DNA of 64,000 nucleotides, from assembly GCF_003003005.1 (NCBI RefSeq), contig NZ_PVTR01000003.1, forward strand, positions 232,890-296,889, read 5' to 3'. The notes beneath the pieces are model-generated. The model did not search any database and was not told where the DNA came from. It was given only the letters and a program-made list of their open reading frames with translations. Both the position numbers and the translations under genes were made by a program. How positions within the stretch are numbered: position 1 is the stretch's first letter; every line of letters starts with the position of its first letter. Shown here one piece after another: positions 15,418-24,017 of the stretch. Source of the stretch: Mongoliibacter ruber. GTDB lineage: Bacteria > Bacteroidota > Bacteroidia > Cytophagales > Cyclobacteriaceae.

Positions 15418-18113
15418 TGAAAAGAAGTACGATTATCCTTTTTCTGTTGATGATATCTGGCATCGCTGAAGCTCAAATTCGTTTGGGTCAAAGTAGATTT
15501 TCCAGTTCCAAACCCGTTGATATTTTGGAACTCAACTATTCCAAACCTCAGAAATTCAGGATTGCAGAGATCAAAGCGGTTGGATTAGCCACCCTCGATG
15601 AAGTTGCTGTGGTATCCTTGTCAGGACTTAGGGTAGACGACCAAATATCTGTACCGGGTGACGCCATTTCCGGTGCGCTTAAAAGACTTTGGGGTCAAGG
15701 TATCATCGGTGATGTCAAAATCTTAGTCACCAAGATAGAAGGTGATGACATCTATCTATTGCTCGAACTTACAGAAAGACCTCGCTTTAGTCGAGTAGAA
15801 TTCACTGGAGTCAACAAAACACAGGAAGGTGAACTAAAAGATAAAATCAAGATCCGTGGAAGGGTTGTCAGAGACGATGTATTGGCCACTTCTCAAAGGA
15901 ATATCAGACAGTATTTCGTGGATAAAGGCTTTTTGAACACTGAAGTAAAAGTGATTCAAGAAAGAGACACAACGCTCCCAAACAGTGTCAAAATCAAATT
16001 TGACGTGGATCGCAAGTCTAAGGTGAAAATCAATGAAGTGCTTGTTTTTGGCAACGAAGAAATTTCTGACAAAAAGGTCAAAGGAAAACTGAAAAACACC
16101 AAGGAGCATCCTAGGCTACATTTTTTCAGAGAAATGGCCTCTCGTATCACCAACACAACTCCACAGTCAGCAAAAGAAGCAATCGTATACAGAAATCCTG
16201 TGACTGACGAGGAGATCAAAAGGTATATGAATAAGAATTTTAAGCTTAATTTCTTCAATGCTTCGAAGTACGTAGCCAAAGATTTTAGAGAAGACAAAGA
16301 TAATCTCGTCAGCTTCTACAACTCCAGAGGTTACAGGGATGCTGAAATTTTAGCTGATTCCACATTTAGACATTCAGACAATACCATTAATGTGGTTGTC
16401 AGCTTGGAAGAAGGAAAAAAATATTATTACCGAAATATCACTTTTGTAGGCAATTACCTCCATGAGGATCAAATTTTGCAGAATAGATTAAACATCGAAA
16501 AAGGAGATGTTTATGATAAAGAAAAATTACAAAAAAGGCTGAATTACGATCCACAGAAAGGTGATGATGTCAGTTCACTTTATCAAGATGATGGCTATCT
16601 TTTCTTCAACATCGACCCTGTAGAAGTAATGGTACAAGGAGATTCCATCGATTTGGAAATGCGGATCTTTGAAGGCCCTCAGGTAACTGTAAACTCAGTC
16701 AGCATACAAGGAAATGAAAGAACTTCTGACCACGTAGTAATGCGTGAGATCAGGATTTTGCCAGGCCAGAAATTTAACAGAAGCCTTTTGGTAAGGACTA
16801 TCCGTGAACTTTCTCAACTGGGTTATTTTGATCCGGAAAAAATCGAGCCTGACATGAGGCCAAACTTTGAAGATGCTACAGTGGATATCACTTTCATCTT
16901 GGAAGAAAGACCAAATGACCAGATAGAACTTTCTGGTGGTTGGGGTGGATTCTTCGGATTTGTCGGGACTGTAGGACTTGTATTCAACAACTTCTCCCTC
17001 AAAAACATAGGGGACTTCTCCAAATGGAGACCACTTCCTGTTGGAGATGGACAGAAGCTATCATTAAGGGTTCAGGCCAACGGTAGAACCTTCCAGAATT
17101 ACAGCATATCCCTGACTGAACCATGGTTTGGAGGTAAGAAGCCAAATGCCCTGAGCTTTAGCTTTAATCACTCTGTCCAAAGATCTATTGACTTTAGAAA
17201 TCCAGGACAGGATTTAGGAGCTTTTAGGATCACAGGAGCTACCTTAGGCCTTTCCAAGAGGGTAACATGGCCTGATGACTACTTCATGGTCAGTCATTCC
17301 TTGCAGTATCAGGTTTATGACTTTGATAGATTTGGAACTACCTTTGGTCTAAGTTTTCCTACAGGAAGAGCAAACAGCTTCACGTTCAACAATACCATTG
17401 CAAGGAATAACATTGACAACCCTATTTATCCTAGATTAGGATCCAATATCTCGCTGGCAACTTCATTTACACCACCTTATGCTACATTGAATCAAAATGT
17501 GGATAGAGAATCTCCAGATGAAGAGAGGTTTAAATGGTTAGAATATCACAAGTGGATGTTTGACGCTACCTTCTACACACCAGTATTCGGATCTTCCAAA
17601 TGGGTAATCAGTGCAAGAACACATATGGGTTTCTTGGGCAGCTATGGTGACAGAATCGGTATGATTCCATTGGAAAGATTTGTTTTAGGGGGTGATGGTA
17701 TGAACTTCAACAACTTTGCCCTTGGACAGGAAATCATAGGACTAAGAGGTTATGAAAACCAGGTAATCACACCAGGTGGAGGTCCTTTAAGGGGACAAGG
17801 ACAACCTTTTGGAGGTGTTGTTTATAACAAACACGTAATGGAATTAAGATTCCTTGTTTCGCCTAATCCTTCCGCAACTATTTTCCTATTAGGATTTGCT
17901 GAAGCGGGTAATAACTGGGGAAGTTATGCAGATTATAACCCTTATAATTTGAAAAAGTCAGCAGGTGTCGGCGCGAGAATCTTTATGCCCGCCTTTGGTT
18001 TGCTAGGTCTTGATTGGGGTTATGGGTTTGATTCGATTTCGGAATTTGACAATCGTCAACAAGGTCCATCTGGCGCACAATTTCACTTTACAATTGGTCA
18101 GCAATTCAGATAA
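15417..18113 (+). CDS. bamA: Outer-membrane protein assembly factor BamA
   Basis: The central subunit of the BAM complex, which folds and inserts beta-barrel proteins into the outer membrane. From the ATG at 15417 the protein has 898 residues: a signal peptide (STIILFLLMISGIAEA), POTRA repeats over about residues 30-490, and a C-terminal 16-strand barrel containing the conserved VLGG(D)/GLRGYE region near residues 760-780. The C terminus ends in an aromatic-rich strand (FHFTIGQQFR). The ATG shares one base with the uppS stop; a TTG at 15414 would add one residue and is not needed. Two OmpH/Skp chaperone genes follow, the usual functional pairing. Confidence 0.95.
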   Translation: MKRSTIILFLLMISGIAEAQIRLGQSRFSSSKPVDILELNYSKPQKFRIAEIKAVGLATLDEVAVVSLSGLRVDDQISVPGDAISGALKRLWGQGIIGDVKILVTKIEGDDIYLLLELTERPRFSRVEFTGVNKTQEGELKDKIKIRGRVVRDDVLATSQRNIRQYFVDKGFLNTEVKVIQERDTTLPNSVKIKFDVDRKSKVKINEVLVFGNEEISDKKVKGKLKNTKEHPRLHFFREMASRITNTTPQSAKEAIVYRNPVTDEEIKRYMNKNFKLNFFNASKYVAKDFREDKDNLVSFYNSRGYRDAEILADSTFRHSDNTINVVVSLEEGKKYYYRNITFVGNYLHEDQILQNRLNIEKGDVYDKEKLQKRLNYDPQKGDDVSSLYQDDGYLFFNIDPVEVMVQGDSIDLEMRIFEGPQVTVNSVSIQGNERTSDHVVMREIRILPGQKFNRSLLVRTIRELSQLGYFDPEKIEPDMRPNFEDATVDITFILEERPNDQIELSGGWGGFFGFVGTVGLVFNNFSLKNIGDFSKWRPLPVGDGQKLSLRVQANGRTFQNYSISLTEPWFGGKKPNALSFSFNHSVQRSIDFRNPGQDLGAFRITGATLGLSKRVTWPDDYFMVSHSLQYQVYDFDRFGTTFGLSFPTGRANSFTFNNTIARNNIDNPIYPRLGSNISLATSFTPPYATLNQNVDRESPDEERFKWLEYHKWMFDATFYTPVFGSSKWVISARTHMGFLGSYGDRIGMIPLERFVLGGDGMNFNNFALGQEIIGLRGYENQVITPGGGPLRGQGQPFGGVVYNKHVMELRFLVSPNPSATIFLLGFAEAGNNWGSYADYNPYNLKKSAGVGARIFMPAFGLLGLDWGYGFDSISEFDNRQQGPSGAQFHFTIGQQFR

Positions 18114-18646
18114 TGATGCATAAATCATTTAAATTGTTAATTTTGTCCGTCCTGCTCGGAAGCCTGATGACATCGCATCATGCAGTGGCACAGACATTCG
18201 GCTATGTGGACTCAGAATTTCTTCTAAATAAACATCCTGACTATAAACTCGTACAGGATGAACTAGAGGCCTTAAAAGACGAATGGAAAAAAGAGGCACA
18301 AAATTTGGATCAAGCAATAAAAGAAATGAGATCCAGCCTCAAAGCTGAAGAAGTTCTTTTGACAGAAGAGATGTACCAAGAAAGATTGGAAGCCATCAAA
18401 GAAAAGGAAAAAGAGGCCGTGGCATTTAACAATAGGGTATTTGGACTGAATGGTCAATATTACCAAAAACAAATGGAGTTAATGCAACCACTTCAATCCA
18501 TCATCTTTGATGCCATTGATAAGGTCTGCAAAAGATTCAGACTGGCAGTGCTGTTTGATAAAGCAGCAGGACCTACAATGATCTATACTGATCCCAGACA
18601 TGATTATTCGGAGTTTGTCCTCCAAGAATTAGGTATTGAAAACTAA
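18113..18646 (+). CDS. OmpH/Skp family periplasmic chaperone, copy 1
   Basis: A 177-residue exported protein with a signal peptide (residues 1-26, ending HHAVAQ), a GYVDSEFLLNKHPDY strand, a long charged coiled coil (residues about 45-120) and a C-terminal strand, the trimeric Skp architecture. It should hold unfolded outer-membrane proteins in the periplasm before delivery to BamA. Its ATG overlaps the bamA stop by one base. A second copy follows after 21 bases. Confidence 0.9.
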   Translation: MMHKSFKLLILSVLLGSLMTSHHAVAQTFGYVDSEFLLNKHPDYKLVQDELEALKDEWKKEAQNLDQAIKEMRSSLKAEEVLLTEEMYQERLEAIKEKEKEAVAFNNRVFGLNGQYYQKQMELMQPLQSIIFDAIDKVCKRFRLAVLFDKAAGPTMIYTDPRHDYSEFVLQELGIEN

Positions 18647-18667
18647 ATATTAAAAATAGAACCAAAA

Positions 18668-19207
18668 ATGATGAAAGTAAAAGTTGTCCTCTCCGCAATT
18701 GCTTTGTTTTGCATAGGATTTGTAGCTCAGGCACAAGATTTGAAAATTGGGTATACCAATGTAGAATTGATCATGGACCTAATGCCAGAAATGGAGCAGA
18801 TAGGTGCTGATATCCAAGATTACCAATCTCAGCTTCAAACCAACATCCAAACAAAAGCTCAGGATTTCCAGAGAAAAGTACAGGCTTATGAGCAATCCGC
18901 TCAGACTATGACTGAAGAAGCCAGAAACCAAAAGGTAAATGAGCTTCAAAAATTACAACAAGAAGTTCAAAAGTATGAGCAAGACGCCCAAGTCTCTTAC
19001 CAGAGAAAACTTGGTGAATTGTTGGAGCCAGTACAGGAAAAAGTATTCAATGCCATCAATGCAGTAGCCGCTGAAAACGATTATACTCACGTATTTTCAG
19101 AAGCAGCTGGTAATTCTCCAATCTTGCTTTACACAAGAGATGATGACAAATTTACCGAGTTGGTATTAGCCAAATTGGGCATTGAAGTTCCTGCAAGACA
19201 GAACTAG
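18668..19207 (+). CDS. OmpH/Skp family periplasmic chaperone, copy 2
   Basis: A 179-residue paralog of the preceding gene with a signal peptide (ending GFVAQAQ), the strand KIGYTNVELIMDLMPEM and a glutamine-rich coiled coil (residues about 50-120). The coiled coil is far richer in Gln and less charged than in copy 1, so the two chaperones may differ in clients. It is the last gene of the nadK-bamA block; a terminator follows at 19233-19264. Confidence 0.9.
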   Translation: MMKVKVVLSAIALFCIGFVAQAQDLKIGYTNVELIMDLMPEMEQIGADIQDYQSQLQTNIQTKAQDFQRKVQAYEQSAQTMTEEARNQKVNELQKLQQEVQKYEQDAQVSYQRKLGELLEPVQEKVFNAINAVAAENDYTHVFSEAAGNSPILLYTRDDDKFTELVLAKLGIEVPARQN

Positions 19208-20588: not shown

Positions 20589-20596
20589 CATAAAAA

Positions 20597-20621
20597 AAGC
20601 CGTTGGCAATGCCAACGGCTT
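20597..20621 (-). terminator. Terminator between thioredoxin and M14 genes
   Basis: AAGCCGTTGGC and GCCAACGGCTT form an 11-bp stem with an AAT loop. A run of seven A residues (20592-20598) supplies the U tract for minus-strand transcripts; plus-strand transcripts may also end here. Confidence 0.88.
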
Positions 20622-20644
20622 AATTGATTGTATTTATTCCATTT

Positions 20645-22393
20645 TTACTTTTTCCAGGTAGCTTTTCCGCCTTTTTCAGAGTCTACATTGATGGTATAAT
20701 TACCACCACCGGAGACAATCCATCTTACTTTGACAACTCCCATTCCAGGGATATTGTCCACATGGATTTTTTCAGGCCCTACCTTTTGTTCCTTGTATTT
20801 TTTGAAGTCTGCATCTTCCACTACAAAACCAGCGACTACTTTCGCACCTGATATACTTACATAATCCGGTCTTGCGATTTTGTATTTAAGATCCTGACTG
20901 GAATGTGTTGGAATCAACCTTTCGTTGTAAATAGTGGCAACTACTTCTTTCAATCCACCACCCAAATCAGTTTCTTTCACATCAGATACAGAAAGTTTAG
21001 GGGTATGGTAACCATGAAGAATAGTAAAGGCAGAGTTTCTATGTGCATCTTGCTCCATCAAGAAGCCTGGATGCAACCTTCCAAAATTCTTTTTAAAACC
21101 ACCAATTTCGATTCTTCCATACTGCGGGTGGTCATATTCCTCCCAGTTGACAAAAGCATCTCCAAAAGTCAGGTACCTGTCTACTTTCATTTGCTCGTCT
21201 TGGTTGTTTCTGCCTGCATTTTCATGGAAATACAAGTAAGAAGTCATCAACTCATTGGAGTAGGTAAAAATACCTCTACCTCCATAAAACCAGTCTAGCT
21301 GACCTCCAAATACAGAATATAGATCTTTGTAAACCACCAAGTATTTGTAGCCCGGCATAAATTCCTCACCTTTTTTGGCAATGGCATCATAAATACGGAT
21401 ATCAGTGGCATTGTAAGTGCCTAGGTCCTCTTCTGCACCCGGCCCTCTCAATATCATACCACCATAGTTGTGGTAACTTTGTGCGCCTGCAATATTTGGA
21501 TGTTTCATGACAAACTCCATTACGGCCCTGTTTTCAGGTACTGCAAAAGGATACTTCCAAGCACCTCTCTGAACGTAATCCGGCTGCCAGTTCCAGCCCC
21601 AATCCCTATTTGGGTCATAGTAGCCTATACCATCTTCGTTGACTTGACCATCTCCATCTCTGTCAATGCCTTCATAACCCAGCATTTCATATTCTCCCTG
21701 CTCATCAGCAGCCACCATGATCAATTTTCTCGGATCCATCTGGTCCTTGACGAATCTTCCAGTAGGTGATTTCCTGATCATAAATGTGATATGCCCATCA
21801 CCATTGAGATCATCAAATGGATCTTCGCCCGCTAAGCCATCTCCATCATTATCCAATACGATCATTCCAGATCTTGGAGAGTTTTGCGTGTTTGCCTCCT
21901 TGATAAAATAGTCATGCGCATCAGGGTTGATGGTAGGTGCGATGTAGAATGTTTTATCCTTAAGCAATTCTGTAATGAACTCTAGGTCGCCATACATTTC
22001 TGCAAGGTACCATGCTGTATAAAGCGTGAACTCCGTACCCTGAATTTCATTGGAGTGAATGTTTCCATCAATCCACATGGCTGGTTTTTCATCAGCCTTA
22101 CCATGATTGAAATCGGTAACGGTAAGCACCCAAATGTCATTTCCTTGATAAGACTTGCCGATACTCTCCAACTTCACTAGGTTGGGATGTTTTTTGGCCA
22201 TGTCCCTCATGATCTCTTCCAGCGCTAGGTTGGTATGATACCTGTTCCAAGACACCTGTACTTTAGGATCGTGGGGCGTTCCCAACGCTCTGAAGTACCT
22301 ATCTTGTGATACTTGCGCTTCAGAAGTTTGTATAGAGGTGAAGCTCACTGCCGCACCAATAAATGCTGTATATATCCAGTTTTTAAATTTCAT
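20645..22393 (-). CDS. M14 family zinc carboxypeptidase, active type
   Basis: A 582-residue exported metallocarboxypeptidase-like enzyme with a signal peptide (residues 1-26). All M14 catalytic elements are present: His113 and Glu116 in NIHSNEIQG, His308 in QSYHNYGG as third zinc ligand, the substrate-binding arginine in NRDWGWNW (Arg263), and catalytic Glu381 in TYSNELM. Between them lie two Asp/Asn-rich loops (DNDGDG and DRDGDG, residues about 181-199 and 244-254) that look like calcium sites. The C-terminal 150 residues form beta domains. The degraded paralog lies 13 bases upstream on the same strand, so the two are almost certainly cotranscribed. Confidence 0.9.
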   Translation of the reverse strand: MKFKNWIYTAFIGAAVSFTSIQTSEAQVSQDRYFRALGTPHDPKVQVSWNRYHTNLALEEIMRDMAKKHPNLVKLESIGKSYQGNDIWVLTVTDFNHGKADEKPAMWIDGNIHSNEIQGTEFTLYTAWYLAEMYGDLEFITELLKDKTFYIAPTINPDAHDYFIKEANTQNSPRSGMIVLDNDGDGLAGEDPFDDLNGDGHITFMIRKSPTGRFVKDQMDPRKLIMVAADEQGEYEMLGYEGIDRDGDGQVNEDGIGYYDPNRDWGWNWQPDYVQRGAWKYPFAVPENRAVMEFVMKHPNIAGAQSYHNYGGMILRGPGAEEDLGTYNATDIRIYDAIAKKGEEFMPGYKYLVVYKDLYSVFGGQLDWFYGGRGIFTYSNELMTSYLYFHENAGRNNQDEQMKVDRYLTFGDAFVNWEEYDHPQYGRIEIGGFKKNFGRLHPGFLMEQDAHRNSAFTILHGYHTPKLSVSDVKETDLGGGLKEVVATIYNERLIPTHSSQDLKYKIARPDYVSISGAKVVAGFVVEDADFKKYKEQKVGPEKIHVDNIPGMGVVKVRWIVSGGGNYTINVDSEKGGKATWKK

Positions 22394-22406
22394 GATTTTG
22401 TCGGTT

Positions 22407-24017
22407 TTAAAGTTTCACATTCAAAGTTGCGATACCGGTATGTGCTGCACCTGCCTTGATTTCTACATTTCCTGAACCTTTGACGATCCAGCTCAAAGTA
22501 GTTTTTTCATATGCACCCAACTTGTCAATCAATTTTATCTTGTCACCTGACATGATGTCTTTGGTCTCTCTGTTGATATCCACTCGGACTTTTCTCAACC
22601 ACCTTGATTTTTCACCCATTTCTGAATGCGTAGGAAGCTGAGAATTGTTAAAAAGGTCGGCTGTGATTCTAGTAAGGCCATTTCCTAATTTCTCAGTCTG
22701 GAGGTTGTGAAACTCTAACTTTGGACTTACTTCAGCCAATTTTAGAATAAAATCAGTATGTTCTTGCGCGATAGCGGCAACCTCAGAAAAAGGTGGATTG
22801 TACATCACAAAAGGCTTGATCCCCCCAACTTCCACAGTTTGGTTTGGCAAGTCAGGATGATTTACTTGTGTCCATGGAACAAAAGCATCTACGCTATTTT
22901 CAGATGCCCAAGCGAGAAAATTAACTTCAGGACTGGAGGATGATTTACCATCTTCACCTTTGACTTCAGGTACCCACCATCCTGGTGTGCTAAAGCTCAG
23001 TCTTCCAAAATGGAAATACGCCCATTGAAAGAAGTCCCCGTCTGTACCTTGATTATTTTGGTTAAATGCTTTTTGCGAAACCGTACTGTTGTACATCTCT
23101 GACACCATGCTATTGATGGCTACATCTTTTTCCAACATAGAAGTGATAATCCTTTTTTTAGCATCTCCGGCATTATACTTCAATGGAGCGGATAGGTTGT
23201 TTGCCGGACTGAATGTCACAAAAGCAAAAATATTCCATTGCTCAAACAAATAATCTAAAAGCGCCCTGCTTTCTGCCTGAGAAACTGCAAAATCACCTGC
23301 CAATGGCGTGAAAATCGGGAATTTGTATGTTTGGTTTCTATTGAAAGCAATGCCTTCCTCAAGGTCCTCTCCAAATTTACCGTCTTTGTCCATATCACGG
23401 CTTTCTGGATATACCATATAGCTTCCTTTTTGCCCTTTAGACGCGTTGGCTTTTACCATTACCCTTTCATCGTCTTCTGCTGGCATATAATCACCCATTG
23501 GGCTCTCTACCCTCATCATGGTAATAAGTCCATCATTATTCAGGTCCACATATCCATCTTCGGACAATCTGCCATCTCTATCATGATCTACTTTTGCAGC
23601 ATTACCTCTTCTTTCATATTTCAAAGAAGCGTGGTATTGCTCATAAGCATCCGGAGACATATTTGGGAAGATATAGAACGTATTTCTGTCCAAAGCTGCA
23701 TCATTTTCATTGACAAGTTTTTCGGCAAATTGTAATGCCAACTCGACACTCAATACATGAAAGCCTTCTGAACCGCCTACTACGGCAATACCCGGCTTGT
23801 TATCCATGTCACCTTTACCGATTTTCAATACCCATACATCCTTACCGCCTTCAGTTTTGGTGAGGGACTTTAAGGTAGCTGTGCCGTTACCGGCAACACC
23901 CTGAAGTCTCTGGGTCATCTGGTTGAGTGTGGGATAATCACTCTGAGCCAGACCGACCGATTGGAAAGAGAAAAGCATCCCTACTCCCACCACCAGTGAT
24001 AAATACATTTTCTTCAT
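22407..24017 (-). CDS. M14-fold protein lacking catalytic residues (pseudopeptidase)
   Basis: A 536-residue exported paralog of the downstream M14 enzyme with a signal peptide (residues 1-24). A gap-free alignment from the shared KP dipeptide places Glu84 and His87 where the active enzyme has His113 and Glu116, so the HxxE zinc motif reads ExxH. The third zinc histidine is Ser270 (VTFSPANN) and the catalytic glutamate is Pro345 (SFSTPGWW). The Asp-rich loops (DHDRDG, DKDGKFGED) and the NRN arginine region remain. The protein is complete, in frame and well conserved outside the active site, which argues for a retained non-catalytic role, perhaps substrate binding or partnership with the active enzyme. 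Gene order suggests it is translated first. Confidence 0.85.
   Translation of the reverse strand: MKKMYLSLVVGVGMLFSFQSVGLAQSDYPTLNQMTQRLQGVAGNGTATLKSLTKTEGGKDVWVLKIGKGDMDNKPGIAVVGGSEGFHVLSVELALQFAEKLVNENDAALDRNTFYIFPNMSPDAYEQYHASLKYERRGNAAKVDHDRDGRLSEDGYVDLNNDGLITMMRVESPMGDYMPAEDDERVMVKANASKGQKGSYMVYPESRDMDKDGKFGEDLEEGIAFNRNQTYKFPIFTPLAGDFAVSQAESRALLDYLFEQWNIFAFVTFSPANNLSAPLKYNAGDAKKRIITSMLEKDVAINSMVSEMYNSTVSQKAFNQNNQGTDGDFFQWAYFHFGRLSFSTPGWWVPEVKGEDGKSSSSPEVNFLAWASENSVDAFVPWTQVNHPDLPNQTVEVGGIKPFVMYNPPFSEVAAIAQEHTDFILKLAEVSPKLEFHNLQTEKLGNGLTRITADLFNNSQLPTHSEMGEKSRWLRKVRVDINRETKDIMSGDKIKLIDKLGAYEKTTLSWIVKGSGNVEIKAGAAHTGIATLNVKL

Follow-up and report, generated by a model that had tools for sequence, protein, structure and literature searches.

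M14 carboxypeptidases are usually regarded as self-sufficient enzymes. Pseudopeptidases with the M14 fold and substituted zinc-binding, substrate-binding or catalytic residues have been described in eukaryotes, namely the four vertebrate examples AEBP1, CPXM1, CPXM2 and CPD domain III, and yeast Ecm14 (PMC11266112). The parts of that survey available to us describe no bacterial M14 pseudopeptidase, and our search of open-licence papers found neither a bacterial case nor a study of the gene pair considered here. In the M16B peptidases, active/inactive heterodimers are known, including MPP alpha/beta and the bacterial pairs TTHA1264/TTHA1265, SPH2681/SPH2682 and AlbF/AlbE; the metal site generally lies in one of the two subunits alone, the genes of at least one bacterial pair are neighbours, and MPP alpha is inactive yet needed for function (PMC12731061).

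The window analysed here, a 64,000-nucleotide stretch of Mongoliibacter ruber DNA, carries two adjacent M14 genes, an upstream pseudo-M14 paralogue (pse) and a downstream active-type gene (act). Like the M16B pairs, pse and act are neighbours in which, judged by residues, one member alone has the metal site, but M16B is a peptidase family with a fold unrelated to M14, and the complex that is proven there is proposed for pse/act (PMC12731061). The pse product shares with the eukaryotic pseudopeptidases an M14 fold with a substituted site, but all of those keep H69 and most keep E72, whereas pse has lost the whole triad, and the available parts of the survey describe no pairing of a eukaryotic pseudopeptidase with an active M14 gene (PMC11266112). 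Among pseudopeptidases, pse is notable for its age, its complete site loss and its near-obligate pairing.

Locus layout and site residues of pse and act

Both open reading frames run uninterrupted on the minus strand. The pse gene (22407..24017, 536 aa) encodes a Sec-type signal sequence, two Asp-rich loops, an M14 domain and a C-terminal beta-rich domain, and is followed after 13 bases (22394..22406, from the pse stop to the act ATG) by act (20645..22393, 582 aa), which also starts with a Sec-type signal sequence; both signal sequences were read by eye. Beyond act, a perfect GC-rich inverted repeat followed by a minus-strand T run, read directly from the sequence, forms a likely intrinsic terminator of the unit (20593..20625, minus strand). 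Because of this terminator-like repeat and the oppositely oriented genes on either side, the pair looks like a self-contained two-gene operon. Elsewhere in the window, 18113-19207 holds an adjacent tandem of two genes that by sequence appearance encode OmpH/Skp-like periplasmic chaperones.

The Pfam profile Peptidase_M14 (PF00246) matches pse significantly (E 3.9e-15, 56.7 bits against a cut-off of 21.6), placing it in the M14 fold family, and matches act at E 2.8e-41; the two proteins are 25% identical, and no NCBIfam model matches either. Their best PDB matches by sequence are M14 carboxypeptidases, and they share the PF00246 profile with such enzymes as carboxypeptidase T and carboxypeptidase A. 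Compared with those enzymes, pse lacks H69, E72, H196, Y248 and E270. A C-terminal beta domain and Asp-rich calcium-type loops are present in both pse and act, and neither has a close relative of solved structure. Single-chain AlphaFold models from shallow alignments had mean pLDDT of 59.7 and 47.8 and stayed under 50 over much of the core, and we drew from them the M14 fold match alone; the top Foldseek matches listed for the low-confidence pse model were all M14.

In carboxypeptidase A (CPA) numbering, His113, Glu116, His308 and Glu381 of act correspond to positions 69, 72, 196 and 270. All of H69, E72, R127, N144, R145, H196, Y248 and E270 are present in act, and this set is conserved in 37 diverse members apart from one copy with His196 changed to Leu; by residue set, act is predicted to be an active-type M14 metallocarboxypeptidase. 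At the zinc-ligand positions pse instead has Glu84 (codon 23766..23768), His87 (23757..23759) and Ser270 (23208..23210), all on the minus strand, which pairwise local alignment (BLOSUM62) and a MAFFT alignment of more than 200 sequences agree in placing opposite His113, Glu116 and His308. The multiple alignment also puts Pro345 (22983..22985, minus strand) on the catalytic Glu381, a region where the pairwise alignment is gapped. These four substitutions are as the initial annotation had given them, as are the signal peptide, Asp-rich loops, length and frame that it described as kept; its list omitted Tyr248 (act Tyr359), which is also gone. A shifted alignment as the source of the Glu/His finding was dismissed because the motif is ungapped, and the alignment methods are concordant. 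The pse of the window retains Arg127, Asn144 and Arg145.

Conservation of pse and drift at its former zinc site

Relatives were drawn from a named genome collection and from genomes of the window's family, class and phylum, a sample of one phylum, with the first genome scan taking the best 80 loci. With sequences classed as act, pse or other by profile scores before tree building, the pse clade was monophyletic with branch support of 100/99 and the act clade with 100/100. As read from this tree, pse had a single origin from an M14 ancestor, earlier than the split of the sampled lineages, and was then kept together with act. The frames are full length in nearly all of more than 100 pse relatives, both DxDxDG loops are about 90% or more conserved in diverse pse, and structural glycines, prolines and tryptophans are retained. 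A simple counting method over 12 close pairs gave a median dN/dS of about 0.045 (pse) and 0.021 (act), a rough pairwise estimate that is saturated for the window's more distant comparisons.

Nevertheless, the site residues are missing throughout. Among 99 distinct pse sequences, a set dominated by close relatives, position 69 is Glu in 94, Asp in four and Arg in one, and never His; position 72 is His in 84, Glu in seven, Asp in two, Gln in two, and Thr, Leu, Arg or Tyr in one each; position 196 is Ser in 83 and Gly in 16; and position 270 is Pro in 98 and Asn in one, with Glu in none. The act partners of the same pse keep H, E, H and E at these positions. Across 33 diverse pse, position 270 is Pro in 26 and again never Glu, and position 196 is Ser or Gly in nearly all pse. 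No member of the clade has a complete zinc triad. With all three zinc ligands and the general-base Glu gone clade-wide, these columns show a protein that is unable to act as a zinc carboxypeptidase. HxxE and the catalytic Glu persist in M14 enzymes outside the pse and act clades, so that one loss of the site at the base of pse is the simplest reading. Taken together, pse is an M14 homologue that lacks its catalytic residues and is conserved under selection, which bears out its initial description as a pseudoenzyme maintained by selection.

That description had centred on an exact positional exchange of the zinc-ligand His and Glu. The exchanged residues are indeed present in the window's pse, but a functional meaning for the exchange did not survive the wider comparison, as position 72 drifts through H, E, D, Q, T, L, R, Y, I, S and N. 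The 33 diverse pse show E, D, K, R or A at position 69 and H, Q, Y, R, D, I, L, N or S at position 72, in fifteen combinations, one of which is the window's Glu/His (11 of 33); distant relatives have K..H, D..Y, E..Q, E..S or A..D. HxxE, which in close homologues would have made this a local decay, occurred in none of the 99 near or 33 diverse relatives. Tree parsimony places Glu69 at the base of the clade and assigns no single ancestral residue to position 72. Neither parsimony nor the column counts in the 99 and 33 pse gave a sign of a single exchange event, so positions 69 and 72 of the dead site appear to have changed separately, and the Glu/His pair is probably drift in a pocket that no longer holds zinc.

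Two other accounts of pse can be weighed on these data. It is quite improbable that the Glu/His exchange gave pse another kind of metal site or a novel catalytic function: an acid at 69 with His at 72 is common in the closest relatives, yet the close-dominated set already shows H, E, D, Q, T, L, R or Y at position 72, which varies more further out, the distant family f90 combines Lys69 with His72, Ser or Gly stands in place of the third ligand, and the catalytic Glu has become Pro. A swapped functional zinc site is thus unlikely in pse, given the drift at position 72, the occurrence of His72 with Lys69 and the replacement of the third ligand by Ser or Gly in almost every member, and we rejected it on the column counts. 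That pse is a local duplicate in decay, destined to become a pseudogene, has next to no probability. It does evolve about 1.8 times faster than act, and in one genome (L183, G622:C74, 216-1864) it is split into two overlapping frames ahead of two intact act copies, through a frameshift or an assembly error, but the full-length frames of its relatives, the low dN/dS (about 0.05) and a clade that spans the phylum are those of a gene under strong purifying selection, and on this selection and spread local decay was rejected.

Co-occurrence and gene order of pse and act

Among 148 genomes of the window's family, 40 have both genes and none has either alone; four family genomes in each list (G011, G080, G087 and G114) have only a more distant M14. 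Among 395 phylum-wide genomes, act occurs in 37 and pse in 36 of those, the exception being G636, in which act starts at base 26 of its contig with the place of pse unassembled, and a search elsewhere in that genome did not find pse. At nearly all loci the gene immediately upstream of act is pse, in the same orientation, with a gap of 1 to 214 bases (median 4 among 76 loci), a spacing consistent with translational coupling. The pair therefore shows the co-occurrence and co-encoding that mark active/inactive peptidase heterodimers, and the tie between pse and the act gene drawn in the initial annotation holds across the family and the phylum. The genes flanking the pair vary between lineages; thus pse and act travel as a unit, and for the same reason the neighbours examined across lineages gave no functional clue.

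In three distant genomes (G322, G426 and G684), pse has no adjoining act, yet act is present on another contig. Because linkage does not explain their co-retention, we regard these genomes as the best individual clue that the two genes are functionally dependent. Distances in the pse and act trees are correlated (Mantel r 0.79, with 0 of 2000 permutations as high), as is expected for co-inherited or linked partners, and this correlation is not decisive by itself.

Several loci depart from the common arrangement. At L188 (G809:C50, 499-2229), two act copies follow pse, and the copy adjoining pse has His196 replaced by Leu (SQLYLNTG), possibly a second, younger pseudoenzyme. In family f90, the pairs at L164-L176 nest within the clade of the window's class in the pse and act parts of the tree alike, as if both genes had been transferred together, and L186 and L187 (G758:C3 and G604:C3) carry a highly diverged adjacent pse/act pair, which in G604 stands beside an ordinary one; the diverged pse there has Asp in place of Pro at position 270 (FSMDFW).

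Possible roles of pse alongside act

Monophyly, purifying selection, near-perfect co-occurrence and coupled gene order together point to a near-obligate partnership. We think it probable that pse serves an M14 carboxypeptidase as a secreted, non-catalytic subunit or chaperone, and that its near-obligate partnership with act predates the divergence of the sampled lineages. A physical partnership, whether for binding or for regulation, is what we infer from this pattern, and a heteromer would be the likeliest form of action, although co-occurrence and adjacency also fit two proteins of the same pathway that never touch. Modelled on the inactive subunits of the M16 alpha/beta peptidases, pse and act would be co-translated and exported jointly, and would come together either in the periplasm or extracellularly, where the calcium-loop scaffold of the dead subunit might stabilise the active one or help present a C-terminal substrate to it. 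We put forward more tentatively, as a possibility that falls somewhat short of even, an obligately two-subunit M14 carboxypeptidase in which act has needed pse, whether to fold, to be secreted or to capture substrate, from a time that predates the divergence of the phylum's sampled lineages. If true, this would amount to an M16-like alpha/beta arrangement within M14, a family that the literature searched does not describe as working in this manner.

The main competing account has pse as a stand-alone binding protein in the pathway of act that forms no stable complex with it, with peptide C-termini, peptidoglycan peptides or calcium-dependent surface ligands as its candidate ligands. The whole fold and the calcium-type loops are retained, and of 33 diverse pse 27 keep Asn144 and 28 have a basic residue at position 145, all of which would suit such a protein. 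Arg127 and Tyr248, however, are lost in most diverse pse, leaving the C-terminal carboxylate site incomplete; substrate binding in the protein's own pocket is not strongly indicated, as Arg127 is unconserved in the family, and a complex better accounts for the near-absolute co-occurrence with one specific enzyme. We therefore consider a free-standing binder unlikely, and prefer the non-catalytic partner of act. The pair offers a tractable, phylum-wide bacterial case for asking whether a dead paralogue is a required subunit, and pse cautions against annotating such common genes as zinc carboxypeptidases.

A third M14 paralogue lies elsewhere in the genome (G000:C5:185887-187302, in loci L003 and L004; also L231, L232 and L233). 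It keeps HxxE and the catalytic Glu, and has Asp at the position of the third zinc ligand His196 (VVNSxDTRVPMHL), a substitution seen in all four members examined, including one from a genome of a distant family in the phylum.
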